Positions 1 to 17,376 of a stretch of 23,276 bases of DNA are shown here, in pieces. This stretch comes from a virus, in the IMG/VR virus record IMGVR_UViG_3300037171_000080, positions 1 through 23,276 of that record; one strand, written 5' to 3'. The stretch's first letter is position 1; each line of letters starts with the position of its first letter. The notes beneath the pieces were generated by a model. That model made no database searches, had not been told where the DNA came from, and worked only from the letters and a program-made list of their open reading frames with translations. The translations under genes were made by a program, and so were the position numbers.

Positions 1-2289
1 GGTAAGCGTCGTCGTGCCTGTTCCGGCGTTCCGGCCTGCGTTGTACCCCAAGGCCACGTTGGATGTGCAGGCAGCCCCCGATGTGCCGCAGTTGTACAGC
101 GCCAGGTAGCCGCTGGCCGTGTTGTAGGTCCCGGTGGTGTTGGAATACAGCGCCCCGTAGCCGCTGGCCGTGTTGGAGGCCCCGGTGGTGTTGAAATACA
201 GCGCCTCGAAGCCGCTGGCCGTGTTGTAGCTCCCGGTGGTGTTGGATAACAGCGCCAGGTAGCCGCTGGCCGTGTTGAAGGTCCCGGTGGTGTTGGATAA
301 CAGCGCCTCGAAGCCGCTGGCCGTGTTGAAGGTCCCGGTGGTGTTGGAATACAGCGCCTCGAAGCCGCTGGCCGTGTTGTAGCTCCCGGTGGTGTTGGAT
401 AACAGCGCCTCGTAGCCGCTGGCCGTGTTGAAGGTCCCGGTGGTGTTGGAATACAGCGCCTCGAAGCCGCTGGCCGTGTTATTGGACCCGGTGGTTATGT
501 AAGTGCCGCCTCCGCCCAAGAAATAGTTATGCAAACTTGCCAAGGTCTGTGTGCTCACGCTGCTGGCCGCGCCGGTGCTGTCTTTTGCGGTATAGGCAAA
601 CGTGGAAATCGGCGTGATGGCTTTCGCGCTGATATTGATTGTGCCAACGAAAGCCGCTGTGGGCGTGTATGTCAGCGATGTTCCGTTAGCTTTCGGACCC
701 CAGATAAAAGTAGATGACGCCGCATTGGTCGATGTACCGGACTGCTGGGCGGCACCAGCCGAGCCAATCGCCACGGTGATCGTGCCGCCGCCGATGGTGG
801 AGGTCATGGCGAGCGTGCCCGAACAGGACGCCGATCCAGTTGGCGTGCCCAGAGTTCCGGTCGTTGGCGTCGAGGTAAAAGCGGTACCCGCCGTAAGCAC
901 GGCGATGGCCGCCGTAACCGCGCCGCTCGTGACCGTGATCGTTCCGGTCGCCCCCGATCCACCGCCCCCGGTGACAGTCAGAGGATACGTGCCCGTGCCG
1001 GTGCAACTTAGGCCGCTGCCGTAGGTCATGCCGGTCACGCCCGCGTTATTCGTGATCCCCGTGACGGTCTGGTAATAGGCGTTATTGGTAAAGCCGGTGC
1101 ATGTCAGCGCCGCCGTCGTGGCGGGCGCGACGTAATTCGGATACGTGCCGGTCCAGCCGGTACCCGAGCATGTGCCGCTGGTCGTGACTTCCGATCCCAA
1201 CGTAGCCGTATCGGTGGCTGCCGTGCCGGTGACGATCTCACCCGCAGCGGTGACTGTACTGAGCGCATTCACCGCCCCCGCCGCGCTCACCGTGAACGCA
1301 TTGCTCGTGCCGACAATGAGTGAGTCCGCACCGATAGCATAGGGGTTAGTGATCGTGACGTGCGTCCCCGCCACGGGAGCCTTCACGTATTCCGAAATGT
1401 AGTTGGTGTACGTGACTCCGGTGTTGGTTGCCGCAATACTATTGCCGCCCAACACGTAAGTATAGCCAGTGGCTACAGTACCGGACCCCGCCGTGGATGT
1501 ATCGGTCAGCGTGCCCGGAACACCTATGATGCGCAGCCCGTTTGTGGCCCACGCCGCCGCCGAGATATTACCACTGATAATGATCGGCGAGGCGTTGAAC
1601 GTCACCGCGCCATTGTGGGTCGTGGTGCCAGTCACGCCCAGCGCATCGGAGCCGATGGTTGCGCCACCGAGGGCCGCGCTTGTTGCCAGCAGATTGCCAC
1701 TATCGTCAATCGTGTAGGTGCTTAGCCCCTTGATATGCGTGGCGTCGGTAAATATCGCGCCCTGGTGAATTAAGGGCGTGCCACTGTTGGACACGTTTCC
1801 ATACGATAGTGCCGGAATATCCGCCGCCACGAGCGCTCGCAGCCCCACCGCGCCCGCCGATCCGTTGGGCGTGGCGAGCACCTGATTCTGGGTGAGCGCG
1901 CTGGTGGGCGTCAACTGGAGCACGGGCGTGACCGAACCGCTGCCACCGAAGCTGCATGTCAGCCAGCTCACCGCAAAGCTGGAATTGCAGGCTACAGACG
2001 TAACGGTGCCGCCGCCTGCGCCGGTTGCGGCGGCCCAGTCTCCGGGCACGGCGCAGCGGTTGCCCGTGACGGTGCCATAGCAGACGTAGGCCGTGGCTGT
2101 GCTGGCGCGGTAGCACTGCGTGCCGAGTTGCGCCAGCGGCATCGTGCCTGGCGCGCTCGGGCACGCGCAGGGCGTGGGCACGGCTGCCGATCCCACCACC
2201 GTCTGCTGGCAGGACGGCGCAGTGTTGATGGGCTGGGCAGAGAGCGCTGCGGCCAGCACAGCAACCAGAAAAAGCAAGCGTTTCGTCAT
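1..2289 (-). CDS. Long secreted tail-fibre/adhesin-like protein, C-terminus beyond the window
   Basis: The frame is open for 763 codons from the ATG at 2289 to the left edge, with no stop seen. The start is set by AAGGAG a few bases upstream and an ATGA overlap with the preceding gene. Residues 1-19 (MTKRLLFLVAVLAAALSAQ) form a Sec signal peptide with probable cleavage after Ser-Ala. Residues ~20-130 are Cys-containing and fibre-like. At about residue 160 the segment VGLRALVAADIPAL is a motif often seen in phage tail fibres. The middle is low-complexity Thr/Gly/Ala-rich beta sequence. Residues ~596-731 are eight 17-aa repeats of the type NTASGFEALYSNTTGTF, like the left-handed beta-roll repeats of YadA-type heads and of fibres bearing endosialidase chaperones. 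The protein then continues (VALGYNAGRNAG) off the window. By inference it is a trimeric surface or receptor-binding fibre. An intramolecular chaperone might follow outside the window. The signal peptide is odd for a virion protein. Confidence 0.8.
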   Translation of the reverse strand, partial: MTKRLLFLVAVLAAALSAQPINTAPSCQQTVVGSAAVPTPCACPSAPGTMPLAQLGTQCYRASTATAYVCYGTVTGNRCAVPGDWAAATGAGGGTVTSVACNSSFAVSWLTCSFGGSGSVTPVLQLTPTSALTQNQVLATPNGSAGAVGLRALVAADIPALSYGNVSNSGTPLIHQGAIFTDATHIKGLSTYTIDDSGNLLATSAALGGATIGSDALGVTGTTTHNGAVTFNASPIIISGNISAAAWATNGLRIIGVPGTLTDTSTAGSGTVATGYTYVLGGNSIAATNTGVTYTNYISEYVKAPVAGTHVTITNPYAIGADSLIVGTSNAFTVSAAGAVNALSTVTAAGEIVTGTAATDTATLGSEVTTSGTCSGTGWTGTYPNYVAPATTAALTCTGFTNNAYYQTVTGITNNAGVTGMTYGSGLSCTGTGTYPLTVTGGGGSGATGTITVTSGAVTAAIAVLTAGTAFTSTPTTGTLGTPTGSASCSGTLAMTSTIGGGTITVAIGSAGAAQQSGTSTNAASSTFIWGPKANGTSLTYTPTAAFVGTINISAKAITPISTFAYTAKDSTGAASSVSTQTLASLHNYFLGGGGTYITTGSNNTASGFEALYSNTTGTFNTASGYEALLSNTTGSYNTASGFEALYSNTTGTFNTASGFEALLSNTTGTFNTASGYLALLSNTTGSYNTASGFEALYFNTTGASNTASGYGALYSNTTGTYNTASGYLALYNCGTSGAACTSNVALGYNAGRNAGTGTTTLT
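97..504 (-). repeat. Eight 51-bp in-frame tandem repeats (17-aa units)
   Basis: Eight copies of a 51-bp unit begin at 97, 148, 199, 250, 301, 352, 403 and 454, with exact periodicity and near identity. The outer units (97 and 454) are the most diverged. On the minus strand each unit encodes N-T-A-S-G-[FY]-[ELG]-A-L-[YL]-[SF]-N-T-T-G-[TSA]-[FYS]. Variation is confined to a few codons and the backbone is constant, as expected for a beta-roll solenoid that expands and contracts by unequal recombination or slippage. It is coding sequence, not a CRISPR array. Confidence 0.9.
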
Positions 2290-2561
2290 TTCGACTCCTT
2301 CTTCAGTTTACATTGCGGTTCGCCGTCCTGGCCGGCGACTACATCCGCATCAGTGCCGCACGCCTTTTGGAGTTCGGTTTGCGCGGATTCGAGCGCGGTC
2401 TTGGCGGCCTGGGCGCGGGCCTGCGCGGCGGCCCACTCGGCGGATGCCCGCCAGAACTTCGCCCGCACTTCGGCGGTGATCTGAGGAGCCTTCGGCGGCT
2501 CCGGTTTGGGCGTCTCGGCGGCGAGCGGCGCGAGCGCCAGAATCAAGAATATGTATCGCAT
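2286..2561 (-). CDS. Small secreted coiled-coil protein, function unknown
   Basis: A 91-aa protein. GAGGAG lies just upstream of the ATG at 2561, and the stop overlaps the start of the next gene (ATGA), so translation is probably coupled. Residues 1-15 (MRYIFLILALAPLAA) look like a Sec signal peptide cleaved before Glu-Thr-Pro. A Pro/Lys-rich linker follows. Residues ~30-70 are an Ala/Glu/Gln/Lys-rich helix likely to form a coiled coil, and two Cys lie near the charged C-terminus. I do not recognise the family. Its place between two long fibre-like genes, all three with signal peptides, suggests it is a periplasmic partner, chaperone or stabiliser of those fibres. A spanin-like role is possible, but there is no lipobox. 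Confidence 0.75.
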   Translation of the reverse strand: MRYIFLILALAPLAAETPKPEPPKAPQITAEVRAKFWRASAEWAAAQARAQAAKTALESAQTELQKACGTDADVVAGQDGEPQCKLKKESK

Positions 2562-2573
2562 GGGTTCTCCTCT

Positions 2574-5126
2574 TTAGTGCATTCCGCACTCGTAAGTCAG
2601 TTGTAAGTTAGTGAACGTCGCGAGAGACTCCAGCGTGGCGGTTGTCTGGGAATAGGGGGGGTATTGTGCGACGTACTGGGCGGGTGCGTTCACCGCGTCG
2701 ATGTGACAAACCCAATCCGTAGGCGCGAACTGGGTAAATGTTATAGTCGTGTACAAAATGCTCGCCGCGCTAGTCGATGTCAACAGAAAGTGCCCAACTG
2801 CATCGCTTCCCGAAAAAGAGGACACCGAACAACTTCCACTGCAAGATATCGAGGGAGTTCCGGTGGCGATGAAATCCAGGGCCGATACGATGTCGGAGAA
2901 TTGCACTCCGCCATCCGTCCCGCCGCCGTTCCAGAAAATCTTCAGCGTATTAGTTGGCGAAGTGCCAGAGGATAACTGCGCCTCCATTAGCCACTGCGAT
3001 GCAATCGCGAAGCTTCCATTCCAGTATGAGCCGTCCAATCCCAGGATCGGCGACAGATTCCCGCTGATGCTCGTGGCTGTTCCGGTCTTAACGAAGACCT
3101 GCTCGCCAAGGGTATCTATCCCCGTCGCCAGCAGGTTGCCGCTCGGGGCAACGGTAAAGATGGCCGCGGCGGATGAGTTTTCAATGTGGAGCACGTCTGC
3201 GCTCTGTGAACTAACAGCCTCCACTGTCAGCGTGGGCGTACCTGTCGATGTTGCAACAAAGTCCACGATGCCGCTCAGGTTCAGCGTGCTTGTACTGTTG
3301 TTCCACGCACCGAAGCCACCGAAGGCGCTTCCGGTATTGTACTGGATGCTGCCGGTCGAACCTCCGGGAGTTCCACCTCCTCCTCCCCCGCCGCACGCAC
3401 CGCCGCTACCGCTAAGCAGGCCCGACGAATTTACCTGCACGCATTGCGTGCTTCCGGTGATTCCAGAGACCGTCAAGTTAAGGACAGACGCCGTGTGAGA
3501 AGTTGAGTTGTAAGTGAAATATCCGTCTCCGTAGAACGCCCCTGTGTTATTGATTTGCACATCGGAATTAGACCCACCCGGCGGGGTTGTTCCGCATCCG
3601 GTGCAACCAGGGACAGTCAGATGGCCTACGTTATCGAAAAATGCCACGACAGTACTGCCGCTCCCGGTCTCAATGTCAAGTAAGTTCGCGGTCTGCCCGG
3701 TCGCTCCTATAACGGTCAAAGGAACCGTCGAAGTGCTCCCGGCCCATGCTTGCAACTGCGTGTTGACGGCCAGGAATGGACCGTTGAAGTAGGTCGCGCC
3801 AGTGTTCGTCATGTTGAGGTATTGCGGGCCACCCGAGTACTGATAGATCTCGAACAGGTCTGCGGATTGTGAACTGCCGAATCCGAACACCTGTAGGGAC
3901 TTTCCCGAGTTGCTTACGGCTGTCGCGGTAAGTCCTCCAAGCGCAGCCGTCAGGCCGGCCGCCGTAACCTTGAGGTCGAGCGGCGCGCCACCATAGCCCA
4001 ATACCTGAAGCAGATCGCCAGACTGGCTGCTGCTGTGACCTTTGACCGTGAGCCCTAATCCCGTGTCCGTGGTGGGCTGAAACGTTGCCGCCGGCGCCAC
4101 GAGTTGCCATCCTTGGCCGCCGACATTCAGGTTTAGGTCCATCACGATGACCGCGCTGCTGTCCAGGAAATCCAACTCGTTTACGGTCGGGGCGCCGATC
4201 TCCATATTAAGCGACGTGCTGCTGGTCGGATCGAATTGCAGGTAAGCGCCGTTTGTAATTGCTACGTGAGGGGACACGTAGAGGAGATTCGTTGCGCCCG
4301 CAAAACTGCCTGAGTTGTTGTACTGAAATGATAGTGTTGGGCTGCCGGGTGAACCGCCTCCGCAGCCGGTGCAACCAGGGACAGTCAGATGGCCGACGTT
4401 ATCGAAGAACGCAAGAATCGGGCCTCCATTCTCGATGTTCATCAGATTGGCTGTCTGTCCGCTGGCTCCATTGATGATGAAGGGCACTGTCGAGGAACTT
4501 CCAGCCCATGCCTGGAGTTGCGTGTTCACCGCCAGAAATGGGCCGTTGAAGTAGGTCGATCCATTGGCGGCCATGTTCAAGTATTGTGAACCGCCGGAAT
4601 ACTGATAGATGTCCAGTAGGTCCGCAGACTGCCCACTGCCATACCCAAAAATCTGCATGGACTTTCCAGAATTGCTGACTGCCGTCGCGGTCAATCCGCC
4701 GAGCGCCGCGGTGAGGCCGTTTGACTCAACGCGCAAGTCGAGCGGACCACCAGCGTACCCCAATACCTGAAGCAGATCTGCTGACTGCGTGATGGAATGC
4801 CCGTTGACTATGAGGGGATGCCCCGTATCGGTGGTGGATGTGAACGTTGCTGCTGGTCCGACAAACTGCCACCCTTGCCCTCCAACACTCAGGAACAGTT
4901 GCAAGTCTGTGACGGAACTGCTGTCGATGAAGCTCAGTGTGTTGGTAGCCGTCTCTTTCAACGTGAAGGCCGGCGTAAACGTGCTCGTGTCGTTGAACAC
5001 GAGAATCCCCGGCGATCCACTTGACGGGTTGATGTCGAGTTGATGGTAGCCACCTGTCTGGGCATTCAAGAAACCCGTGCCCGCCATTGCGAGAATTGCT
5101 ATTCCGTATCTCATAAGTTTGCTCAT
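2574..5126 (-). CDS. Repeat-rich tail-fibre-like protein with signal peptide
   Basis: An 850-aa protein. I choose the ATG at 5126 because it overlaps the stop of the hub gene as ATGA and is followed at once by a signal peptide (MSKLMRYGIAILAMAGTGF, then LNA-Q). The longer frame to 5267 would run inside the hub gene. No clear Shine-Dalgarno is visible. Seven motifs of the form GQ[ST]A[DN]LL.I followed by a beta-strand resemble repeats common in phage fibres. Residues ~60-255 and ~320-511 are two copies of one block at an offset of 256 residues. Residues ~560-590 are glycine-rich. The last ~100 residues begin with GSDAVGHFLLTS, a typical fibre C-terminal beta-sandwich start. It is probably a beta-helical trimeric fibre or receptor-binding protein. 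The signal peptide suggests an exported form. The family call rests on repeats and position. Confidence 0.8.
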   Translation of the reverse strand: MSKLMRYGIAILAMAGTGFLNAQTGGYHQLDINPSSGSPGILVFNDTSTFTPAFTLKETATNTLSFIDSSSVTDLQLFLSVGGQGWQFVGPAATFTSTTDTGHPLIVNGHSITQSADLLQVLGYAGGPLDLRVESNGLTAALGGLTATAVSNSGKSMQIFGYGSGQSADLLDIYQYSGGSQYLNMAANGSTYFNGPFLAVNTQLQAWAGSSSTVPFIINGASGQTANLMNIENGGPILAFFDNVGHLTVPGCTGCGGGSPGSPTLSFQYNNSGSFAGATNLLYVSPHVAITNGAYLQFDPTSSTSLNMEIGAPTVNELDFLDSSAVIVMDLNLNVGGQGWQLVAPAATFQPTTDTGLGLTVKGHSSSQSGDLLQVLGYGGAPLDLKVTAAGLTAALGGLTATAVSNSGKSLQVFGFGSSQSADLFEIYQYSGGPQYLNMTNTGATYFNGPFLAVNTQLQAWAGSTSTVPLTVIGATGQTANLLDIETGSGSTVVAFFDNVGHLTVPGCTGCGTTPPGGSNSDVQINNTGAFYGDGYFTYNSTSHTASVLNLTVSGITGSTQCVQVNSSGLLSGSGGACGGGGGGGTPGGSTGSIQYNTGSAFGGFGAWNNSTSTLNLSGIVDFVATSTGTPTLTVEAVSSQSADVLHIENSSAAAIFTVAPSGNLLATGIDTLGEQVFVKTGTATSISGNLSPILGLDGSYWNGSFAIASQWLMEAQLSSGTSPTNTLKIFWNGGGTDGGVQFSDIVSALDFIATGTPSISCSGSCSVSSFSGSDAVGHFLLTSTSAASILYTTITFTQFAPTDWVCHIDAVNAPAQYVAQYPPYSQTTATLESLATFTNLQLTYECGMH
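3595..4950 (-). repeat. Internal duplication within the fibre gene (offset 768 bp)
   Basis: Two diverged copies lie at about 4360-4950 and 3595-4190 and share long near-identical runs. For example, GTGCAACCAGGGACAGTCAG occurs at 3601 and again at 4369, giving an offset of 768 bp (256 codons). Both copies encode the same order: VGGQGWQ, a TTDTG...GHS block, DLLQVLGY, LTAALGGLTATAVSNSGKS, QYLNM, FNGPFLAVNTQLQAWAGS, and VGHLTVPGCTG. This is an in-frame modular duplication that lengthened the fibre. Confidence 0.85.
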
Positions 5127-7855
5127 AAGTTTGAGTTTGCGGTCAGGCATCGCCAGATTCCCGGCGTGTCGGTTTGGACGAACAAGTAGGCCGTTTCCGC
5201 GTAAGGAAGCGGGCTTGGTTGCGGAGGACCGATAGCCGGTGAACCCGTCGAGTAGCTTGAGTCCCACGTTATTGCGTGGCCGCCAACGTGATCCTGAATG
5301 ATCGTGAGCCAGAATGGATCGCCCCCCGTGGCCGTGGGGGGATGTAGGATGGCGTTCATCGTCACGTTCGCCGAGATAGTGTACTCTTGCGCCGTGCCGT
5401 TCGCATAATCAGGCAGAACGTGGCCAGCGATGGTTATGGTGATAGTGAAGTACCCGTAAGTTGCCCCGGATGGAGCCGCCCCCGTCGTTTGCAGCGCGGC
5501 GACTGCCGCCGGTGCGCTGGCACCCGACGTAAAGAACTTGACAGCCGTCTTCCAGTCTCCAATGATGGCCCCGAATACGCAGGTCAGAGACCAAAGCTGC
5601 AAGCGATTCAAATCCGTCAGGCGGGCGGATTGCACCACGAACGTGGCACCCGCGACTCGGTTCAAACTTACGACAATCGACATGCCCGGCGCGATGCCAG
5701 TTCGGTAGGTGTCCACCGCGAGTTCCTGGGAAAGCACCGAGAACAGATTGGAAAGCGTCTGGGCCACTTCCAGCCCGACCGCCTGCGCCGGCGGCCCCTG
5801 CACGAGAGGCAGCGTGTTTGCCAGGTCCAGGTAGGTGTCGTACTCGCCCGAGCCGCCCTCGGCCAATTGGCGCACGCCGATGGCAACCTGGTCTAGGTAC
5901 TGCGCGTAGGAGGACGAAGACGGCTGGTAAACCACCAGGAGGAATTGGCTGCTCATGATCGCTGCTTGCCCGGCATCCTGCTTTAGTTCGTTGCTGCCCG
6001 GCGACCAGTAGAAATCGAAACCGGATTTCCCGACTTCCCCGACCGTCATCGCCAGCGCCATGGCGGTCACGCAGTAGCCGTGCGCTCCCGTGCCTGTGCC
6101 GCCCGTGCATGTGAATGGGTCAATATCGTTGTAGCCTGTGCCGGGATTGCCGAGGTTCCAGGACAGGATCGAGTGTACATTCGGGTCCGCAAAAATGAGC
6201 ACCGTGGCGTTGTTCCCGCTGCCGGGCTGGTGGAGTGTCAGCAGGTCGCCATCGGTGTACCCGGTCCCTGTCCCAGCGAACGCCTGCAAAAAGGTGATGA
6301 CGCCCGAGGGCAGCGGGTTCGGCGCGATGCCGTCGTATCGCGTCACGGTCGGGGCCGCCGCCACCGGATACGGCAACTGGAAAGACTGAGTGCTGTTGTC
6401 GCCTTGGCAGTACACCGAGACCTGATTGGAAAGCTGCGAGAGGTCAAGCCACGTCGCGTTGAAGTACTTCTCGCGCGTGACTGAGCAAGAAACCTTCATC
6501 AGCACGTTGCCATCGCTGGCGTCGAGTTCGCTGATATTCCATGGGGCCGGGTTGCTCACGCCCTGGATGGCGAAGTTGAAGCCTTTGCGTGGGTCCAGGT
6601 AGTACCAATACGCACCAGCCGCCCCGGAGATGTACTGGCAAAGCGAAGCCAGCGCCGCGTCGATGCTCTGGCTGGCGGTGAACTGGATGGCCTGAATCCC
6701 AACCGCTGGAGTCACGTTTGCCAAGTCCACCGTGATGCCTTCGGATGCCGCGATCAGGTTGATGAGGTTGACGGCGATGGCGTCTGCGTTGACTCCGGTA
6801 TAGTTCAGGCTCGGGATGATATTGCTGCCGCCACTCGCCGCAGTGCCGTTCACAGTGAACACGAAGACATCCGTGGGGTTTATCACCAGCGACGGGTCGA
6901 TCCCAATCGAGGGGTTATCCGCCGGAGACCAATAGAAATCGTACCCACCCGCGCCCCAGGGCGGCTGAATGTTGTACGGGCCGTAGGCCACAGCCGTACC
7001 GTTCACCGTGATGAGCACGATGTTCGTGGGCGCCGGGTAGATCGAGAACCAGCGCGTGTGGAACACGGTCGGCGCCGTGCCGGGCGGGGAGCCGGGCGGC
7101 AGATATTGCGAAATGCCGCTCTGTACGCCCATGGGGTTCGTCACGGCGTCGTAGGGAGCGCCGTTGAACGTGAGATACTGTTGCCCCGCCTGGTACTCGG
7201 GCGAGGTCTGGAAGGTCGGGCAGAGCACAATCAGGCGGCGTGCGCAGATCGCCTCCCAGGCTACGCACTGGACCTCTATCTCAGTGCGGCCCGTGCCAGG
7301 GTAGTTCGTCACCTTAGCCTGTTCTATACTGCCCCCAAAAATGTCGCCCACCTGGCCGCCAAAGGGCGCGGTTGCGAGGCTGGAATCTGTTAACAGAACC
7401 GGATTCCCTACCAGAGACGTGGGTATTCCGAACACTCCGATACTTTCGGTGACGTAGTTGTATTTGATTGTGAAGTCGAGTGTCCCCCGCGTCGTGAGCG
7501 AACGCTCAAATACGATGCTGTCTTGCAGTACGGCGTTGTCCGTGCCGAAGTGGGCTTCATCGAGCGGACGATAGATCGTGACTTGCGCGCCGGCCGCAAT
7601 CGCAGTGCTTGCCGCCGTCGCCATCGTGCAGATGCCGGCACTTGCTACGGTGGCGATGGTGGTCCACAGCGGAGCGCCAGACGGCCCAGCGCCGAGCACT
7701 TGAACCTGATCGCCCACGTCCGCGGACGCCAATCCGTAGAACCCGTGTCCCAATCCGAGATAAAGGTTCACCCCACTCACCGCCGCATTTACATTCACGC
7801 CTCCAAGCCAGATCGTCAGGCTGGCCGCGGAGTCGGGCGTGGGCTTGAAACTCAT
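5123..7855 (-). CDS. Tail hub / baseplate-like minor tail protein
   Basis: A 910-aa protein beginning four bases after the tape measure stop, with only a weak ribosome site. Placement directly after the tape measure gene is where siphophages keep distal-tail and hub proteins. Residues ~115-145 (FERSLTTRGTLDFTI) and ~170-208 (GDIFGGSIEQ... EIEVQCVAWEAICARRL) match the usual hub pattern of a strand pair followed by a 'C.DW...A.RR' element. Residues ~375-425 include a stretch ending WYYLDPRKGFNFA, also typical of hub proteins (gp27/gpJ-like). The C-terminus (residues ~800-905), with TIIQDHVGGHAITWDSSY and YLFVQTD..GIWRCL, matches a small beta-sandwich often found on tail fibres, so the gene looks like a hub fused to a fibre-type module. 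It probably forms the tail tip and contacts the host. No signal peptide is present. Confidence 0.75.
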   Translation of the reverse strand: MSFKPTPDSAASLTIWLGGVNVNAAVSGVNLYLGLGHGFYGLASADVGDQVQVLGAGPSGAPLWTTIATVASAGICTMATAASTAIAAGAQVTIYRPLDEAHFGTDNAVLQDSIVFERSLTTRGTLDFTIKYNYVTESIGVFGIPTSLVGNPVLLTDSSLATAPFGGQVGDIFGGSIEQAKVTNYPGTGRTEIEVQCVAWEAICARRLIVLCPTFQTSPEYQAGQQYLTFNGAPYDAVTNPMGVQSGISQYLPPGSPPGTAPTVFHTRWFSIYPAPTNIVLITVNGTAVAYGPYNIQPPWGAGGYDFYWSPADNPSIGIDPSLVINPTDVFVFTVNGTAASGGSNIIPSLNYTGVNADAIAVNLINLIAASEGITVDLANVTPAVGIQAIQFTASQSIDAALASLCQYISGAAGAYWYYLDPRKGFNFAIQGVSNPAPWNISELDASDGNVLMKVSCSVTREKYFNATWLDLSQLSNQVSVYCQGDNSTQSFQLPYPVAAAPTVTRYDGIAPNPLPSGVITFLQAFAGTGTGYTDGDLLTLHQPGSGNNATVLIFADPNVHSILSWNLGNPGTGYNDIDPFTCTGGTGTGAHGYCVTAMALAMTVGEVGKSGFDFYWSPGSNELKQDAGQAAIMSSQFLLVVYQPSSSSYAQYLDQVAIGVRQLAEGGSGEYDTYLDLANTLPLVQGPPAQAVGLEVAQTLSNLFSVLSQELAVDTYRTGIAPGMSIVVSLNRVAGATFVVQSARLTDLNRLQLWSLTCVFGAIIGDWKTAVKFFTSGASAPAAVAALQTTGAAPSGATYGYFTITITIAGHVLPDYANGTAQEYTISANVTMNAILHPPTATGGDPFWLTIIQDHVGGHAITWDSSYSTGSPAIGPPQPSPLPYAETAYLFVQTDTPGIWRCLTANSNL

Positions 7856-7859
7856 GCGT

Positions 7860-10004
7860 CTACCATTTGGCCCCGCTGCGGCGTGACATCTTTACCGCTT
7901 TGTCCATGACGTTCGATACGAGGTCTTGTGTCACGCCGGTGAAGCTGCTGCCCCTGAAGTCAAAATGCGTCCCCACGCTCGCATTGTGCTCGTAGTTGGC
8001 GGTGCTGTAGCGGTTGGACACGTTCTCGGATCGCGGCACGACGGCCTCTCCTTCATGGAGCATCGCTAGGCCGGTGCGTGGTACCCAGTCCGTGCCCTCT
8101 GCAAAGAATGGCACGATGGATAGCGCCCCTTCGATGAGATCGCTGCCAAGACCGCCGTCGCCCCCTCCGCCACCAGCTCCGCCCCCCTTGAACAATCCGC
8201 TCAGAATGCCGCTCAGCGCGGATGTAAGCATATTCTCCAACGGAGCCAGCAGCGCATGGAGGAATATCTGAAGCGCGTCGGTAGCAAGTTGGGAAAATAT
8301 GCTTTTGACGGTTGTCGCCCATCCCTTCCAATGAACGATATCGTTTGCGAGACTACTCTCGATGGTGCCGAACATGCGCGGGATCTCCTGGAACGCCGCG
8401 CCCGCGAGATTCTTGGAGAAGTCCCGGCTTTCGACTGCCGCTTTGGCCAGCGCCGCTCCATAGTTTCGCCAGCCTTCAGCGAGATCCGCCGCCGATCCCA
8501 CGCGCTTGATAATCTCAAGGCTTGAGGCCATCTTTGCCAATTCTTCATCAGCCACATGGAGATGGAGATCGGCGAAGGCCTTGGGAAGATTCATCAGGTC
8601 GTTTACCGTCTGGTACATAGCCGGCGATAGACGATCCTTGAGCGCTATTATTTCGGTGGTCTTGGCGACGGCTTTCTGACCGCCTTCGACGTATTTGTCC
8701 CACGCCTTGTCCATGACCCCTTGCTCGCGCGTTTTCTCATCCGCAACGCCTTGCTGCGCTTTTTGGAGTTCAAGTAGAATTTTGGTGGTTTCCGCCGCCT
8801 CCTGATCGAGACGCTTGTAGAAGGCTTCCCATCCTTTTGCCGCGCGCTCGCCCTGCTGGTTGGAGTCTGTTTGAGTCCCTACTTGGCCCTTGAGGTCTAC
8901 GTTCTTCGCCGCATCTTTTACCTGAACGAGTTGGTTCTGAAGGTATTTGAGCAGATCCAGAAGCGATTTTATCTCTTTGGTAATTGTGGGTGTCTCTGGT
9001 TCTGCGTAAAGCTTATTCAGGGACCCACGCACTTCGACTATCTCGTCATTTATAAGCGCAAGCTGGTGGGGCAAGTCGGAAAACCCGCCCTCCGTGATGT
9101 TGATGCTCTTTAGTTTCTCCTGCAAGTCACTAATGCCATCCGTTAGTGTCTGGATGATCTCTGTAGCCCCATGCGTGTTCGCCCCTGGGCCGCCTCCAAG
9201 GATCTCGGGGTCTAACAAGTTCCGCAACAAAGCCGCCCATGTGCTGCCCTTGCCTTTTTCTAAGTGCTGCTGTATTTGGTCGAAAGCCTTGTCCAAGTCC
9301 AACGCCATCTTCGCGCCCGCAGCAGCGGTCTCCAGGAGCGCAACCTTTAGCTTGTTCTCTGGTTCGCCGCGTAGCTTGGCGAGTTGGTTTTCCAGTTGGG
9401 CATTGGAAACCTCCATTGAAGCATTGGTGACTTGCAGCGATTCGTTAAACTCGCGCCAGTAAAGTTCTGAATCAACGAGCGCGTCCTTTTGCGCCTTCGC
9501 CCATTTGACGATGCCCTCAATGGCATTGGCGATCATCTCGGGGAGCATGACCACCATAAAAAGACTACGGAACAGCCGGAGTTCCGAAACCATGCCGCGG
9601 AAAGATCCGGTTGCCCGTTCGGCCATTCCGCCGAAGTTCTCGCCCGCCATCGCTGCGTTCTGGCCGGTAGCGTCAAGCGCGGAACTGAACTCCTCAAAAT
9701 CCAGGCTGGCGTTTCGTGCTGCCGCTCCAGCCGCCCGGATGGATTCGGCCAGACGCTCGGCAGCAGCAGTGCCTACGGCCCCCATTCTTTCGGATACGGC
9801 TGTCAAGTTCGATACGGCTTCGGCTGCTGTACCGGAGACTCCCTCGATTTCGGATAACGATTGCGCGATGGCTTCTGCCATCGTTTTGCCGCCCTCAACG
9901 TACCTCGCTACTGCTGCCTGAAAGGCCTGGTCAGCTTGGGAGAAGTCTCCAGTGACGGTAATCTTCACGCCACCGATGGACTCGCCGCCTGGTTCGTCAG
10001 GCAT
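7860..10004 (-). CDS. Tail tape measure protein
   Basis: A 714-aa protein that sets tail length and probably helps DNA cross the membrane. The start codon shares one base with the stop of the GT frame (TGATG), and GAGAGGAG lies about nine bases upstream. The first ~130 residues are Ala-rich helix (SQADQAFQAAVARYVEGG...). A hydrophobic segment follows at ~145-168 (FRSLFMVVMLPEMIANAIEG), then long charged helices, a second helical hydrophobic region at ~575-605 and a Gly-rich linker (GGGAGGGGGDGG). Residues ~634-658 contain GTDWVPRTGLAMLHEGE, the hallmark C-terminal element of many tape measure proteins. The length is modest, implying a short-to-medium tail. Position after the tail chaperones and before the hub agrees fully with the call. 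Confidence 0.93.
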   Translation of the reverse strand: MPDEPGGESIGGVKITVTGDFSQADQAFQAAVARYVEGGKTMAEAIAQSLSEIEGVSGTAAEAVSNLTAVSERMGAVGTAAAERLAESIRAAGAAARNASLDFEEFSSALDATGQNAAMAGENFGGMAERATGSFRGMVSELRLFRSLFMVVMLPEMIANAIEGIVKWAKAQKDALVDSELYWREFNESLQVTNASMEVSNAQLENQLAKLRGEPENKLKVALLETAAAGAKMALDLDKAFDQIQQHLEKGKGSTWAALLRNLLDPEILGGGPGANTHGATEIIQTLTDGISDLQEKLKSINITEGGFSDLPHQLALINDEIVEVRGSLNKLYAEPETPTITKEIKSLLDLLKYLQNQLVQVKDAAKNVDLKGQVGTQTDSNQQGERAAKGWEAFYKRLDQEAAETTKILLELQKAQQGVADEKTREQGVMDKAWDKYVEGGQKAVAKTTEIIALKDRLSPAMYQTVNDLMNLPKAFADLHLHVADEELAKMASSLEIIKRVGSAADLAEGWRNYGAALAKAAVESRDFSKNLAGAAFQEIPRMFGTIESSLANDIVHWKGWATTVKSIFSQLATDALQIFLHALLAPLENMLTSALSGILSGLFKGGGAGGGGGDGGLGSDLIEGALSIVPFFAEGTDWVPRTGLAMLHEGEAVVPRSENVSNRYSTANYEHNASVGTHFDFRGSSFTGVTQDLVSNVMDKAVKMSRRSGAKW

Positions 10005-10824
10005 CAGGGTAGCTCCTCTCTGGTTGTGGTCGGGAAGCGCGCTTTGTGCTGCGCGTCTGCGTTCAGGGGTTCCTTGGCGGATTCCAGCGCGCGCCGCTTC
10101 TCTGCCGCCGCGCCAGCCGCCCGCAGATTGGACCGCATGATGGACATTTTTTCCTCTACCGTCTGGCGCCCGATCACGTCTTCGATGGTCGCCGGCCGGG
10201 GCGGTCTGCCCCCGAACATCTCAGGCGAGAAGCGACCGCCGCCCGGATGCTTGAACCAGGCGGCGTGCAGCGTCGTTTGCAGGCCAGCGTACATATCTAC
10301 AAAGTCTTGGAAGTGATGCTCGTACACCTCGCGCAGCGCCCGGTACTCGCGCGCCGTCCGCGACCACAAATAGGCGTCCGACAACCCCAAGCCGTACCGG
10401 CTGGTGCCGAACGCCCACAGCCTCAGCCAGTACTCATCGTCGCGGGTTACTGCAAGGGCGCCTGAGCCTGCTTTGGAGCTTCCACCGGCGTCTGCGGCAG
10501 CCCCAGCCGCTTTCCCAGGCAGGCAATGACCGCCTTGGAAATCTCGGGCATGGCGTCCTCGGGAATGCGCAGCGCCCACTGTTCGGCGGTGGGCACCGGC
10601 TTGCTCGATTCCACGTAATTGTGGCTTACCATCGCGGCGAACAGGTCCAGGACCATGGCTAACTTACCCGGCCCCGGCGTCCGCATCTGCTCGATAAGGT
10701 GCTCCAAGTCCACGCCGCGACGATCCGCGGTGTATTGGCACAATAGCGAGAATTTCAATGTAAGGGATTCCGACGTTTTGCCGTCTTCGATGGTGACGTT
10801 CGGATCTCCCAAAGGAGTGTTCAT
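10004..10824 (-). CDS. Tail assembly chaperone GT, -1 frameshift fusion product
   Basis: Read 10824 to 10510 in frame 0 (105 codons), then slip back one base at the GGGAAAG heptamer (10516-10510) and read 10510 to 10004. This gives about 273 aa. The downstream frame has no good start of its own. Its conserved part, VTRDDEYWLRLWAFGTSRYG followed by LSDAYLWSRTAREYRALREV, begins only after the end of the frame-0 protein. The upstream part of that open frame is just the shifted reading of gene G. The fusion reads ...ACLGK-AAGAAADAGG... across the site. In lambda and most long-tailed phages such a G/GT pair chaperones the tape measure protein during tail tube assembly. The stop abuts the tape measure start. 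The frameshift itself is inferred. Confidence 0.75.
10447..10824 (-). CDS. Tail assembly chaperone, upstream (G-like) product
   Basis: A 125-aa protein starting MNTPLGDPNVTIEDGKTSES at 10824, about 20 bases after the tail tube stop, with only a weak GGTGG ribosome site. A longer frame to 10899 would overlap the tail tube gene, so I reject it. The body is helical (DLEHLIEQMRTPGPGKLAMV...) with a Pro/Gln-rich end. Small acidic-to-neutral helical proteins between the tail tube and tape measure genes are the G-type chaperones that bind the tape measure protein. Residue 105 sits at the slippery heptamer, so the last 20 residues are specific to the unshifted form. The family call rests on position plus the frameshift. 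Confidence 0.75.
   Translation of the reverse strand: MNTPLGDPNVTIEDGKTSESLTLKFSLLCQYTADRRGVDLEHLIEQMRTPGPGKLAMVLDLFAAMVSHNYVESSKPVPTAEQWALRIPEDAMPEISKAVIACLGKRLGLPQTPVEAPKQAQAPLQ
10510..10516 (-). other. Programmed -1 frameshift heptamer GGGAAAG
   Basis: On the minus strand the frame-0 codons are CTG GGA AAG CGG, giving G_GGA_AAG in the X_XXY_YYZ register. This is the same heptamer as the lambda G-T shift site. A slip of -1 leads exactly into the open downstream frame ending at 10004. Plus-strand sequence is CTTTCCC. Confidence 0.8.
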
Positions 10825-10843
10825 GGCGTAATAGTACCACCAA

Positions 10844-11416
10844 TCAGGAAAGCACCGGCATCCCGGTGAGCGTGATGGTGACTTCCGCCTGTTCCACACC
10901 GGCCACAGCGGCTTTCTTCGAGAACTTGGAAACGAAGCCCTGGAAATAGTCTGTAGTCTGGGCAGTGTTGGGATACTGGATAGCGAACGGGACCGGGTTT
11001 CCGGGCGTGGTCAGTCCGCGGCTGGTGAACAATGCCTCCAAGCCGCCCGTGTTGCCGTGCGGGTAGGGCGGCCCGCCGGCGCCGGCCGGAGTGATCGGTC
11101 CCTCCGAGTCCGGAATGTAGTACAACGGAAGCGTGAAATCGCCGGCATCCAGCAGGGTGCAGAGCTTTTCCCGCCAAGGGTTCCCGGTGGAGTGGCTGGT
11201 TACGTCCACCACAGTGGCGCTCATGGACGGCCCGGAAAGGTCGCCCACGTTGGCGATGGGAGCGTAAATCTCGGGCGAAGCTCCGTTACCGATCATCAGG
11301 TACGTATTGATGGCGGGCAGGCCAATCGGGAAAGTCGCCTTAGTGTAGGTGGTGCCAGCAACCAGCGCAAAGGCTGCAAGCGCCATCAGGATGTTGTAAA
11401 TCAGGTGAAGGTGCAT
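10844..11416 (-). CDS. Major tail tube protein with an N-terminal hydrophobic leader
   Basis: A 190-aa protein that forms the tail tube. The conserved core includes LMIGNGASPEIYAPIANVGD, then LSGPS and VDVTSHSTGNPWREKL, the standard tail tube pattern, followed by a beta-rich domain and a C-terminal part with TDYFQGFVSKFSKK and an immunoglobulin-like strand ending ITLTGMPVLS. AAAGGAG lies eight bases before the ATG at 11416 and fixes that start. The protein therefore begins MHLHLIYNILMALAAFALVA, a hydrophobic segment that ends in an Ala-x-Ala-like site before the core starts near residue 24. Typical tail tube proteins have no such leader. It lacks Lys/Arg in the n-region, so it is a weaker signal peptide than those of the fibre genes. 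Function is confident; the meaning of the leader is not. Confidence 0.85.
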   Translation of the reverse strand: MHLHLIYNILMALAAFALVAGTTYTKATFPIGLPAINTYLMIGNGASPEIYAPIANVGDLSGPSMSATVVDVTSHSTGNPWREKLCTLLDAGDFTLPLYYIPDSEGPITPAGAGGPPYPHGNTGGLEALFTSRGLTTPGNPVPFAIQYPNTAQTTDYFQGFVSKFSKKAAVAGVEQAEVTITLTGMPVLS

Positions 11417-11430
11417 CGTCTTTTCTCCTT

Positions 11431-11916
11431 TTATGTCTCAGTATTGAAAAGCCTTACGTCGAGACATTGGACATAGGCTGGCTGCTTCGAAAGCTGATAA
11501 TCCATCCGCCCCCGCTGCGAAAGCAAGAAGCTCGGGAACTGCGGCGGCGTAGCGGGTGGCGTGGCGAATTGCGCGGGGCTGGCCAGGTCCACTGTCCCCA
11601 GGAAGGCGACAACATCGGCGGCCACCTGGCGCGCGACTTCCGCGCAGAAATCCAGTACGTCGATCTGAAGGCGCACTTCGGACAGCGGACTGAGATTGCT
11701 CACGCCGTATCCGTTGCCCTGCACGTACCGCCGCCCCGTGGAGACGCGCAGCACACGCACGCACGACGCCCCGACCGTATTGGCCGGGCTGGAGGGCTGG
11801 AGCGCACCCTGGGCAAGCTGCATGTCAAACCAGCGAAACGGCGTAGTCCCCAGATCGGCCTGGAGGGTCGTGTTCGCCGCCGCGAGTTGCCGTAACTTTT
11901 CTTCCGCGCTCACCAT
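11431..11916 (-). CDS. Tail completion / terminator protein (DUF3168-like)
   Basis: A 161-aa protein. The start at 11916 (MVSAEEKLRQLAAANTTLQA) overlaps the preceding stop by seven bases. The longer frame to 12021 is only the shifted reading of that gene. The layout is an N-terminal helix (residues ~3-20), a segment TTPFRWFDMQLAQGALQPS giving the typical 'W..LPQGA..P' pattern, a central strand pair with VRVLRVSTGRRY, and a strand-helix segment VRLQIDVLDFCAEVARQVAADV. This fits the tail terminator fold of DUF3168/gpU-type proteins, which cap the tail tube and join it to the head. Position immediately before the tail tube gene agrees. The C-terminal ~45 residues are Pro/Phe-rich and extend a little beyond the usual core. 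Confidence 0.7.
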   Translation of the reverse strand: MVSAEEKLRQLAAANTTLQADLGTTPFRWFDMQLAQGALQPSSPANTVGASCVRVLRVSTGRRYVQGNGYGVSNLSPLSEVRLQIDVLDFCAEVARQVAADVVAFLGTVDLASPAQFATPPATPPQFPSFLLSQRGRMDYQLSKQPAYVQCLDVRLFNTET

Positions 11917-13423: not shown

Positions 13424-13921
13424 TTACGGTCCGAGTAACCGATTCCAAACCTTCCAGGTCCTCTCCCTGGCTGAGAACGAATCCTGCACCATCTCCGCGA
13501 TGGCGAACGCCCCGGAATTGTCGCTCTGTTCCCGGTACGCTTCCGCCTGCGCGTGAAGCGCCTGCTGCACGTCCTTGGCGCTCAGCTTCACATCCAACAT
13601 GCCGGAGATCACGGCGAGCCGCGCCTTGCTCGAAGCCAGCACGTCCAGAGCCTGCGCAGCCGCGCGCAGATAGTCGTATTGATTGCCGCCCAGGCCGACG
13701 TTCGCGCCGGTAGGGTCAGACTGCGAGCTGGTGTAGATCCCCATCTGGCCCGTTAGCGTCAGGTAGAAGCTGATTTCGTCGTCGTTGAAAATCGGGTGCG
13801 TAACGTCGCAGTCGGGAATAAGCGCGCGCACCGCAGTGACCGCGTAATTCGCGTTGAAATCGTAGGTGAAGCCGCCCGGAATGTTTGGCGTGTCCACCGG
13901 GTACTGTGGAAGGCTGCTCAT
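13424..13921 (-). CDS. Head-tail connector / adaptor protein (gp6-like)
   Basis: A 165-aa protein. The ATG at 13921 overlaps the preceding stop as ATGA. Residues ~25-55 carry VTAVRALIPDCDVTHPIFND followed by DEISFYL, the usual start of HK97 gp6-type adaptors ('VR.LIPD....FSDDEI..FL'). A helix then follows (LRAAAQALDVLASSKARLAV), with an amphipathic stretch KLSAKDVQQALHAQAEAYRE typical of the 'A..LRA.A..YR' element in these proteins. It would form the ring beneath the portal. Finding it several genes after the capsid gene, behind two exported proteins, is unusual spacing. Confidence 0.78.
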   Translation of the reverse strand: MSSLPQYPVDTPNIPGGFTYDFNANYAVTAVRALIPDCDVTHPIFNDDEISFYLTLTGQMGIYTSSQSDPTGANVGLGGNQYDYLRAAAQALDVLASSKARLAVISGMLDVKLSAKDVQQALHAQAEAYREQSDNSGAFAIAEMVQDSFSARERTWKVWNRLLGP

Positions 13922-15504
13922 TGCGTCACCACCAGTCCACCAGATGCGGTCACGCCGCCCTGGAAGATATCGCCGGGGCCGACGTTCAGCAAATTTGTCC
14001 AGCTCAGCGCCGTATCGTTTGGAGCCAGCGAGCCCATGGCGGTGGGCGTACCTGTCCCGCTATTGCAGTTGTCGGCCTGCTGGTTCGCGGTCGTATAGTA
14101 TAGCGGAGTCGTGAAAAACCTGGAGACGAACTGGCCGCCGTTCGCCGACACCCAGCCGACGAATGCGCTATTCCACAACTGCTGAAGTTCCAGCCAAACC
14201 ACGTCGATGCACCCGAGATACCTGTTAGGCTCGGACGGGCGCTCCGTGGACGGGGGGGCGAGATTCGTAGAGTTATACGGTGCCCATCCGGGCAGATCGG
14301 TCTGCGTGATCCCCCATGGCACCGTTACCGTGTTGTTTGGGCTGGCTCCGGCGCGCGTGTTGGCGATGAACCCGGTACAGTACGCGGAGGTGCAGGTTCC
14401 CTCGATAGACTGCAGTTCTTCGGAGTAGGCCAAGTTCGATTGGTCCGATGTGCCGTTGAAGGCGTCCCATCCAACGAAATCCAGGTAGGTATGCGTGGCA
14501 CTCTGCGTGGTCTGCGGGCAGTTCCCAGCGACTGCAGGGGTTCCCACCGGGATGATGCTGGCGTTCACCACACCGATCCAGTCCCAGGCAAAACATATGT
14601 CCGAGTTGGACGGCGAGATGTTCGCCGCGACCGGATAGCTTGGCCCGGTGAAGGCCGCGCCGATCTTGACTGACGGAACCACGGCTTTGATGGCCGTCGA
14701 GAAATCCTTGATGACCTGCGCTGCGTAGGCGACAGTCAGCGTACTCGGTGGAATCTGCGTCTGCATCGCTGCCAGCGGCTCGATGAGAACCTGAAAGGAG
14801 GAGATCGCGGCCCCGTAGCGGTCGAACATCGCCAGCGTGGGGGGCAGCACGCACGCCTCGTATTGGGCCTCTGTCAGCGGATACGGGAGATTTAACGTCG
14901 GGTAGCACGAGTTGAGCATGTCCGTCACAACCCCAGGTATTCCAGAGCGCCAGTTCACGCCGTGCGCCACATACCCGTTCACCATCGAATCCAGGATACT
15001 CAGCATCTTGCAGTGCGGCCCGCTTCCGGCCGGCGCGGCAGTCGCCGGACTCGTGAACGCGAGCGTGCCGCCACGCGCGCAGTCGGAAACCGCCATGCAG
15101 CCGCGGCTGCCACACGTTGTGGAAGCAAAGAAAGCCGCGATATCCACGAATGTATCGTGCGTGGTCATTCCACTGGCGAGCATCTGAGCCGAGAACGTCC
15201 CGTTGGCGCAGGGCGCGCCGAATGCCGCCAGGCTGGCGCTCAGAAAAGGGCCGAGGCACGGGATATCCTGCCCGGTGAGCATGATCTTAGGCTGTGGGTG
15301 AGCTGCATCCCGCGCCTTGATGTCTTGGAAGCTCGCGCACTCGTCGGCGTAGAAGTTGGCGAGCTGGTACTGCGCCGCGGGCAGATTGTAGCACTTGCTG
15401 CCAGGCTGGCAGACAGACGCGCACCCTGATTGGTTCGCGCAGTTGCATTGCGCCATGGCCGCCAGAGGCAAGAACGTGAGGAGGGCGAGCACCTTTACTG
15501 GCAT
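13918..15504 (-). CDS. Secreted cysteine-rich protein, possibly glycoside-hydrolase-like
   Basis: A 528-aa protein. GAGGGTGG precedes the ATG at 15504, which overlaps the previous stop by ten bases. Residues 1-19 (MPVKVLALLTFLPLAAMAQ) are a clear Sec signal peptide cleaved after Ala-Met-Ala. The mature N-terminus is Cys-rich (QCNCANQSGCASVCQPGSKC), and I count 20 Cys overall, which suits an oxidising compartment. Strand-like FQVLIEPLAAMQ (Glu-242) and YLDFVGWDAFN (Asp-342) with alternating helices (YAAQVIKDFSTAIKAV) suggest a TIM-barrel, and 'IEP' at a strand end recalls the acid/base Glu of clan GH-A. No family is certain. It could be a polysaccharide-degrading enzyme acting on the host envelope or biofilm. 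The C-terminal ~60 residues are Gly/Thr-rich. It ends in an ATGA overlap with the connector gene. Confidence 0.72.
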   Translation of the reverse strand: MPVKVLALLTFLPLAAMAQCNCANQSGCASVCQPGSKCYNLPAAQYQLANFYADECASFQDIKARDAAHPQPKIMLTGQDIPCLGPFLSASLAAFGAPCANGTFSAQMLASGMTTHDTFVDIAAFFASTTCGSRGCMAVSDCARGGTLAFTSPATAAPAGSGPHCKMLSILDSMVNGYVAHGVNWRSGIPGVVTDMLNSCYPTLNLPYPLTEAQYEACVLPPTLAMFDRYGAAISSFQVLIEPLAAMQTQIPPSTLTVAYAAQVIKDFSTAIKAVVPSVKIGAAFTGPSYPVAANISPSNSDICFAWDWIGVVNASIIPVGTPAVAGNCPQTTQSATHTYLDFVGWDAFNGTSDQSNLAYSEELQSIEGTCTSAYCTGFIANTRAGASPNNTVTVPWGITQTDLPGWAPYNSTNLAPPSTERPSEPNRYLGCIDVVWLELQQLWNSAFVGWVSANGGQFVSRFFTTPLYYTTANQQADNCNSGTGTPTAMGSLAPNDTALSWTNLLNVGPGDIFQGGVTASGGLVVTQ

Positions 15505-17300
15505 TGGAATGCCACCCTCAAGTTGGCCGTCGTATCGGTCGCGTTCGATGTGCTGGTCTCAACCCCTACGTAGAAGGTGTCGCCACTCGAAAAGGTTACG
15601 GAATCGGCTCCGTCGCTGCAAGTCGTGCCGGTTCCCAGCGTACAAGTTAGGGCGCTCTGCGCACCGTTGTGGTAGAGGGTGACTACTCCGCTGCTGGCGT
15701 CCTGCCCGGCTGCGGAGCTCTTGGCGATCAAGGCGAACGCCGTGCACGGCCCACTGATCGGCATCCCGAGCGCCGTCGTGCCGGTACAATCCGGCAAGCC
15801 GTCATCCTGGCTACCGGGGAATAGGTAGTATTCGGTGCTGAGAGATGCGCCCACTGCGCCGTTGCACCAGCTCTCGTAATTCGGAGCGTCCAGAGAAGTG
15901 GGAGTCCATATTCCTCTCGCCAGTCGCAATCCCTGCCCTGTAGTCGGGGCGGTTGCGGAGATGCTTACACCGCGGATGCCAACGACCGACGCCGCCACCG
16001 TTCCAGCCGCGTTCGTCATGTCTCCGGTGAATGCGGGCATCTGCGCAGCCGCGAGTACTCCGGCGATTTGCGGCAGGGTGCAAAGTAACCAAGCGCTGCT
16101 GCCTGTATTCCAGCAATAGACGTCTCCCGCAGTCGTGGGGGCTGTAGGGGTAACCGCATTATGCTGGATGGCTCCGACTGTCATCACGGTACCAGGCACA
16201 CCTGCCACGACGTTGCTCGCGTCTCCAGTGAACCCGAGGCTGTACAACTGGTTCCCGCCATTCAGCCCGAGAGGAGCCCCAGCCACCAGCGCCGCGCCTG
16301 GAGTATAGATCGTCTGGCTGTATCCGGTCGTCGGCCCGCTGATGACAAACTGTGTCGTGTGCGTGGAGTCGTAGAACTTGATCGCTCCCTCGGCCGTGCC
16401 GGACAGTCCGAGCGTGCCGCCAACCGTCACATTGCCGCCAACCGTCAGTAGGTTCAAATTTCCAGGGATCGTGCCGCTGTCAAGACACGTTGGGGAAATG
16501 TAGGAGGTGCAGTCAACCGCCGCCGTGCCGTTGATTTCGTTAGCAGAAATCGCGCCGCCTCCGGTGGGCGCCAGCGTGCCGGACACCAGCAGCGCGTTTC
16601 CGTTCGTACCGCTCCCCACTCCGCTAAAGTTGACGGACCCGCCGGTGCCTCCCGTATCTCCGCAACTCCATGTGTGGGTGGCCGCCGTATAGTTGAGGTG
16701 GAGTCCCGAATCCGGGCAGTCCGGGATGGGCGATATCTGCCCGGTCCCCACGGTCCCTCCGATCTGGTACACGGCATCGGTGACCGTGTCGGCCGGAAAC
16801 GTAGTGCCGTTGATCGTCGCGGCATCAATCGTGCAGCCGGCTGGGGTCAGGTAGTCGGTACAGGGCGTGGCTACCCGAGCCGTGTTGAATCCGGTCGCAT
16901 AGGGAATGCCGGGGCCAGGGTAAGGAATATAGGCCGTGCCGAGTGGCGGGTAGGTCTGCGGCTGGCAATAGGTCGAGAGCCGGGCCGGGCTGGATGCCCC
17001 GATCTGGCAGACTTCCTCGAAACTCGCCCCATTGTACGTGGTGAATAGCAGCACGTACTGGGTTCCGGCGGGGCTTACCACGAGAGACACATTCAGCGCG
17101 CCGCCCGTGATGCTCACCGTCTGGTTCCACGCCGCGATGGTGTTCGCGCTGATATCCACGCTCACCGCCCCGGAAATCTTGAGCGTGCCGTTGAACGGCG
17201 CTCCGGACACCGGCGTGTAAATGGTGTCGGAGATGGTCGTGTACTGCGGCTGCGCCACCAGCGCCAGCGGCATGAGAACGGTAATAATCGCCAGTTTCAT
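15495..17300 (-). CDS. Secreted tail-fibre-like protein
   Basis: A 601-aa protein from the ATG at 17300. The longer frame to 17366 would read through the terminator hairpin, and only the shorter start puts a signal peptide (MKLAIITVLMPLALVAQ) at the N-terminus. No Shine-Dalgarno is visible. Residues ~22-110 (DTIYTPVSGAPFNGTLKISG ... EEVCQIG) are a fibre N-terminal beta domain of a type seen in many phage fibres ('G.PFNGTL.I'). The middle is Thr/Gly/Ala-rich with TVGGNVTVGGTLGLSGTAEG. Residues ~485-601 form a C-terminal beta-sandwich (DSVTFSSGDTFYVGVETSTS...) with paired Cys. It is probably a fibre or adhesin. Export is implied by the leader. It lies directly after the capsid gene and its terminator, ahead of the Cys-rich protein. 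Confidence 0.78.
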   Translation of the reverse strand: MKLAIITVLMPLALVAQPQYTTISDTIYTPVSGAPFNGTLKISGAVSVDISANTIAAWNQTVSITGGALNVSLVVSPAGTQYVLLFTTYNGASFEEVCQIGASSPARLSTYCQPQTYPPLGTAYIPYPGPGIPYATGFNTARVATPCTDYLTPAGCTIDAATINGTTFPADTVTDAVYQIGGTVGTGQISPIPDCPDSGLHLNYTAATHTWSCGDTGGTGGSVNFSGVGSGTNGNALLVSGTLAPTGGGAISANEINGTAAVDCTSYISPTCLDSGTIPGNLNLLTVGGNVTVGGTLGLSGTAEGAIKFYDSTHTTQFVISGPTTGYSQTIYTPGAALVAGAPLGLNGGNQLYSLGFTGDASNVVAGVPGTVMTVGAIQHNAVTPTAPTTAGDVYCWNTGSSAWLLCTLPQIAGVLAAAQMPAFTGDMTNAAGTVAASVVGIRGVSISATAPTTGQGLRLARGIWTPTSLDAPNYESWCNGAVGASLSTEYYLFPGSQDDGLPDCTGTTALGMPISGPCTAFALIAKSSAAGQDASSGVVTLYHNGAQSALTCTLGTGTTCSDGADSVTFSSGDTFYVGVETSTSNATDTTANLRVAFQCQ

Positions 17301-17310
17301 CGTCAGACAC

Positions 17311-17350
17311 AAAAAAAGGCCCGCCCGCCTTTTCGCAGCGAGCGGGCCTT
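17311..17350 (-). terminator. Intrinsic terminator after the major capsid gene
   Basis: On the minus strand, AAGGCCCGCTCGC pairs with GGCGGGCGGGCCTT (arms 17338-17350 and 17316-17328, one mismatch, nine-base loop), followed by a run of seven T (17317-17311). It lies 27 bases beyond the capsid stop and only ten bases before the next ATG at 17300. It probably sets a high capsid-to-fibre ratio by partial termination. Confidence 0.88.
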
Positions 17351-17376
17351 GCTCCACTTTCCTCAAACCTGCCTCG

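Follow-up and report, generated by a model that had tools for sequence, protein, structure and literature searches.

Among the tail tube proteins described so far, YSD1_22 and gp93 of P74-26 represent a family in which the N-terminus governs ring and tube assembly (PMC7385642, PMC10034513). The N-arm of the YSD1 protein braces adjacent subunits, and without residues 1-8 the protein is monomeric (PMC7385642). In simulations of the P74-26 protein the N-terminus keeps a socket of the monomer blocked, whereas in the ring it is freed, and the role of the N-arm is similar in P74-26 and lambda (PMC10034513). These two papers, as searched, mention no hydrophobic leader on YSD1_22 or gp93 (PMC7385642, PMC10034513), and searches of the open-access literature found no tail tube protein for which a hydrophobic leader has been reported.

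The tail tube gene and its surroundings

The stretch of DNA analysed here, in the following called the window, is the complete 23,276-base IMG/VR record IMGVR_UViG_3300037171_000080, which is possibly a genome fragment. The features discussed below are:

10844-11416, minus strand: tail tube ORF, 190 aa, starting with MHLHLIYNILMALAAFALVAGTTYTKATFPIGLPAINTYLMIGNG
10844-11353, minus strand: tail tube core (lambda gpV type) together with the canonical N-arm and the stop codon (matches to PF16461, phrog_158 and the lambda gpV profile)
11354-11416, minus strand: predicted hydrophobic N-terminal leader, codons 1-21, MHLHLIYNILMALAAFALVAG (from the ORF with its SD, the L003 homologue and the AlphaFold2 helix)
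11417-11433, minus strand: gene junction that contains the SD AAAAGGAG and overlaps the upstream gene's stop codon (read from the sequence)
11431-11916, minus strand: putative tail terminator upstream of the tail tube gene, named from position only, with L007 and L020 homologues in the same place
L007 4520-4879, minus strand: gene for an HNH_3 endonuclease (119 codons), seen only in the L003/L007 phage, where it lies antisense and separates the tail tube gene from the putative terminator

PF16461 (Phage_TTP_12) scores the tail tube protein with 29.8 bits at a curated cut-off of 26.1, and the protein also matches phrog_158 (major tail protein). The profile of its family matches the solved chains of lambda gpV with an E value of 1.9e-6, and the core is beta-rich in the AlphaFold2 model, which is a monomer model. 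The gene order at the locus, from the putative terminator over the tail tube to the chaperone and tape measure genes, is the same as in annotated phages; the neighbours of the tail tube gene are named from position, as the family searches gave no informative match for them. In Streptomyces phages the annotated terminators sit immediately before the major tail protein genes. The window protein shares the core family and the place behind the putative terminator with lambda gpV-type tail tube proteins (PF16461; phrog_158). Unlike these, the window protein and its homologue from the relative L003 carry about 20 and 27 extra hydrophobic residues, respectively, before the usual start. Between the tail tube gene and the putative tape measure gene two ORFs (10004-10579 and 10447-10899, minus strand) overlap in an arrangement which resembles the G/GT tail assembly chaperone pair.

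Start site and properties of the leader

The tail tube ATG is preceded by the strong SD AAAAGGAG at a spacing of 8 nt. M11 is the sole other in-frame start ahead of the core and lacks an SD; the next one, M41, already lies inside the core, and no ATG, GTG or TTG is found between the two. The alignment with the leaderless L020 protein (MPVYTPSTFPIG...) maps the usual start to about residue 21 of the window protein, in agreement with the extra length of about 20 residues given by the sequence-only reading. Its view that the leader is real and set by the ribosome site also holds, with an SD at M1 in both leader lineages and none at M11.

Of 700 ATG-initiated open 25-mers taken from the window and one relative, a background that includes the leaders themselves, only 0.7% are as hydrophobic as the leader, whose hydrophobicity falls within the range of membrane segments. 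Sums of membrane-insertion free energies are favourable for both leaders, these being approximate values for a segment of only about 16 residues. The AlphaFold2 model, built with 21 sequences, is of moderate confidence (mean pLDDT 71.7, pTM 0.62). It places a helix at residues 2-19, with a mean pLDDT of 80 for residues 1-10 and 60 for residues 11-20, which is weak evidence where the segment is short and hydrophobic and the model that of a monomer, followed by a poorly defined linker at residues 19-35 (pLDDT below 50).

Distribution of the leader

Relatives were sought via the capsid, a four-member tail tube alignment, a degenerate DNA pattern and the putative terminator. Two IMG/VR contigs which are 99.9% identical to the window, and thus near-clonal representatives of the same phage, carry an identical leader, so that it is present in three assemblies of this phage, window included. 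The tail tube protein of L003/L007 (a 46.6 kb contig) is 68-70% identical to the window protein; the L003 leader, MAILMLSMSFGGPMIALLLAAFALMLGGIVY, is partly different from that of the window and is preceded by its own SD, GAGGAG. Next closest is L020, with a capsid core 91% and a tail tube about 61% identical to those of the window phage. Its tail tube begins at the core with the SD directly ahead and carries no leader. A start at the core is also seen in every one of about 22 more distinct tail tube proteins, whose identity ranges from 56% to about 27%, with a clear SD in nearly all of their genes, and the tail tube proteins of annotated Streptomyces and Paracoccus phages have no leader either. 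Neither the degenerate DNA pattern search nor the terminator search gave an additional leader-bearing relative, and no matches came from bacterial genomes when tail tube and capsid were used as queries.

The leader-bearing proteins of the window and L003 pair in the tree (support 89/90) with L020 as sister (80/79); these supports are moderate, and the independent leader lineages are only two. According to the sequences compared, the leader is confined to one small branch of soil phages, and it appears lineage-specific because the proteins of L020 and of the about 22 others begin right at the core. The simplest reading of these sequences is that the leader was gained once, in the ancestor shared by the window phage and L003; if it were older, it would have to have been lost several times, in L020 and in all the other relatives. 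With about 23 distinct relatives leaderless, a leader on such a protein is indeed unexpected, as had been supposed. The alignment of homologues that the sequence-only reading proposed as a check for conservation gives a divided answer: close homologues are leaderless, with their starts at the core, whereas one diverged relative retains a diverged hydrophobic leader.

Apparent selection on the leader

Between the window and L003 the four-fold sites of the core match at 25 of 67 only, which indicates that silent sites are near saturation, while 73% of the core residues are identical. Within the leader none of the 6 four-fold sites and 11 of the 27 residues are identical. The block ILMALAAFALVAG of the window aligns with IALLLAAFALMLG of L003, the leader alignment being gapped except within this 13-residue block. 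Common to both leaders is LAAFAL, for which 5 of the 6 codons are silently changed. Identity in the block amounts to 0.62, 0.77 and 0.31 at codon positions 1, 2 and 3, a pattern that is, at the level of sequence, a coding signature. Composition-preserving shuffles reached the leader alignment score in 0.34% of cases and a shared word of six residues in none of 5000, and a neutral simulation with the silent divergence of the core gave a probability of 2.5e-5 for at least 8 identities in 13 and of 8e-4 for an all-nonpolar 13-mer, all these statistics deriving from the single pair of window and L003. The leader thus looks like a translated segment under protein-level constraint. A start-site error is argued against because L003 keeps a diverged hydrophobic leader under this apparent selection.

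Gene junction

The tail tube SD of most relatives is placed within the end of the upstream gene or next to it. That of L020 is found within the last codons (CTA GAG GAG TTA CCG TAA C ATG), the ATG following one base past the terminator stop. In the window 14 nt separate the upstream stop from the tail tube ATG; the tail of the upstream gene differs (NTET before the stop) and a new SD follows the stop. The upstream gene of L003 ends at the same codon as that of L020. However, the HNH_3 gene separates the terminator end from the tail tube gene, so that a new SD and a new start were needed. The junction therefore appears to be rearranged in both leader lineages, by the HNH_3 gene in L003 and by the changed tail and new SD in the window, from which the HNH gene is absent at this site. 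The HNH element was considered as a carrier of the leader and rejected, as 13 other relatives of the HNH gene have no comparable leader alongside. A supposed fossil start codon at the end of the L003 terminator was dropped, since it is not needed to align the terminator codons with those of L020.

Alternative explanations

The main rival to a functional leader is that it is a by-product of the rearranged junction, where a new start further upstream came into use and the resulting extension is tolerated although it serves no purpose. The position of the L020 SD inside the terminator tail, with the ATG one base after the stop, fits with this, as do the HNH_3 gene between terminator end and tail tube gene in L003 and the changed terminator tail and the new SD of the window. 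We nevertheless consider it rather unlikely, because the non-polar block was kept although silent sites are near-saturated, because relatives of the HNH gene have no comparable leader next to them, and because the window lacks the gene at this site. Even less probable is that the full leader is not made and translation starts at M11 (MALAAFALVAGTTY...) or elsewhere. M11 is in frame and L003 contains several internal start codons, but the strong SD is at M1 in both lineages and not at M11; even from M11 at least 10 leader residues (11-20) would be made, because no further start precedes M41.

Export and luminal plugging are both unlikely. A cleaved Sec signal peptide, with the tail tube protein exported in whole or in part, could be suspected from the hydrophobic core followed by LVA/G near the canonical start (slash marking the possible cut) and from the signal-peptide-like N-termini of nearby genes. 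The leader resembles signal anchors and Sec signal peptides in its short N-terminus and its non-polar stretch of 12-17 residues followed by small residues. Of the Sec features the hydrophobic h-region is present. The leader differs from these signals in that it sits on a cytoplasmic polymerising virion protein and lacks the positively charged n-region: neither leader has K or R ahead of the hydrophobic stretch, in contrast to 1-3 in the n-regions of the signal-peptide-like neighbours. A classical exported Sec substrate is therefore unlikely. Of the possible cleavage motifs, read by eye, the one in L003 (FALMLG/G) is no clear AXA site. Moreover, tail tubes polymerise in the cytoplasm around the tape measure protein, and altogether we give this explanation very little chance. 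The link to exported fibres drawn in the sequence-only reading is weak for the same difference in n-regions, and also because the phage of the leaderless L020 (L058) has a signal-peptide-like gene as well. The least probable of all is that the mature subunit retains the helix, which would then line or plug the lumen of the tube. The leader is predicted to be helical, but in solved tubes the N-arm is located at the ring interfaces, where it contacts adjacent subunits (PMC7385642), and the lumen, which is often acidic, is occupied by the tape measure protein (PMC10721106), so that six greasy helices per ring would be crowded.

Possible function

Taken together, one small lineage has probably extended its lambda gpV-type siphophage tail tube protein by a hydrophobic helix of 20-27 residues before the canonical N-arm; this helix is probably translated, kept non-polar, possibly competent for membrane insertion and connected to the core through a flexible linker. 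From the sequences and the model we infer its translation and its retention as a non-polar helix on this linker. A greasy helix on the N-arm should affect assembly, location or both, because the N-arm clamps adjacent subunits. The leader might be a pro-sequence-like or anchor-like element which keeps new subunits either at the inner membrane or assembly-silent and bound to a chaperone, by occupying the N-arm that normally clamps adjacent subunits; once the tube polymerises, it would be pulled back, trimmed off or stowed at the ring interface. Such a holding element, removed or parked on polymerisation, is the most likely mechanism, but only tentatively proposed. More doubtful is the specific version of a membrane anchor, in which the host inner membrane would be the place where tails are assembled or retained, with the anchor released or buried on polymerisation. 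The N-terminus of the tail tube protein decides the timing of ring formation. If the leader blocks or re-addresses it, the leader lineage beside its close leaderless sister would be a natural comparison for the control of premature tube assembly and for tail assembly at the membrane.

Signal-peptide-like genes in the phage group

Signal-peptide-like N-termini, with K or R followed by a hydrophobic stretch (e.g. MKLAIITVLMPLALVAQ and MPVKVLALLTFLPLAAMAQ), are found in the window at 2574-5267, 13918-15504, 15495-17366 and 2286-2561 (minus strand), and two such ORFs have the capsid gene on one side and the connector genes on the other. The three large ones have no Pfam match. A derivation of the leader from a neighbouring signal sequence was considered and not retained; the best alignment, with the gene at 15495-17366, has p of about 0.02 among 14 comparisons, which is not significant. 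Small signal-peptide-like ORFs of about 118-134 aa occur in relatives (L022 10922-11326; L058 11513-11869, minus strand; L040 1363-1749), and that of L022 lies near the capsid gene. Judging from these ORFs, the phage group may share a small protein, predicted to be secreted, that is encoded close to the capsid.
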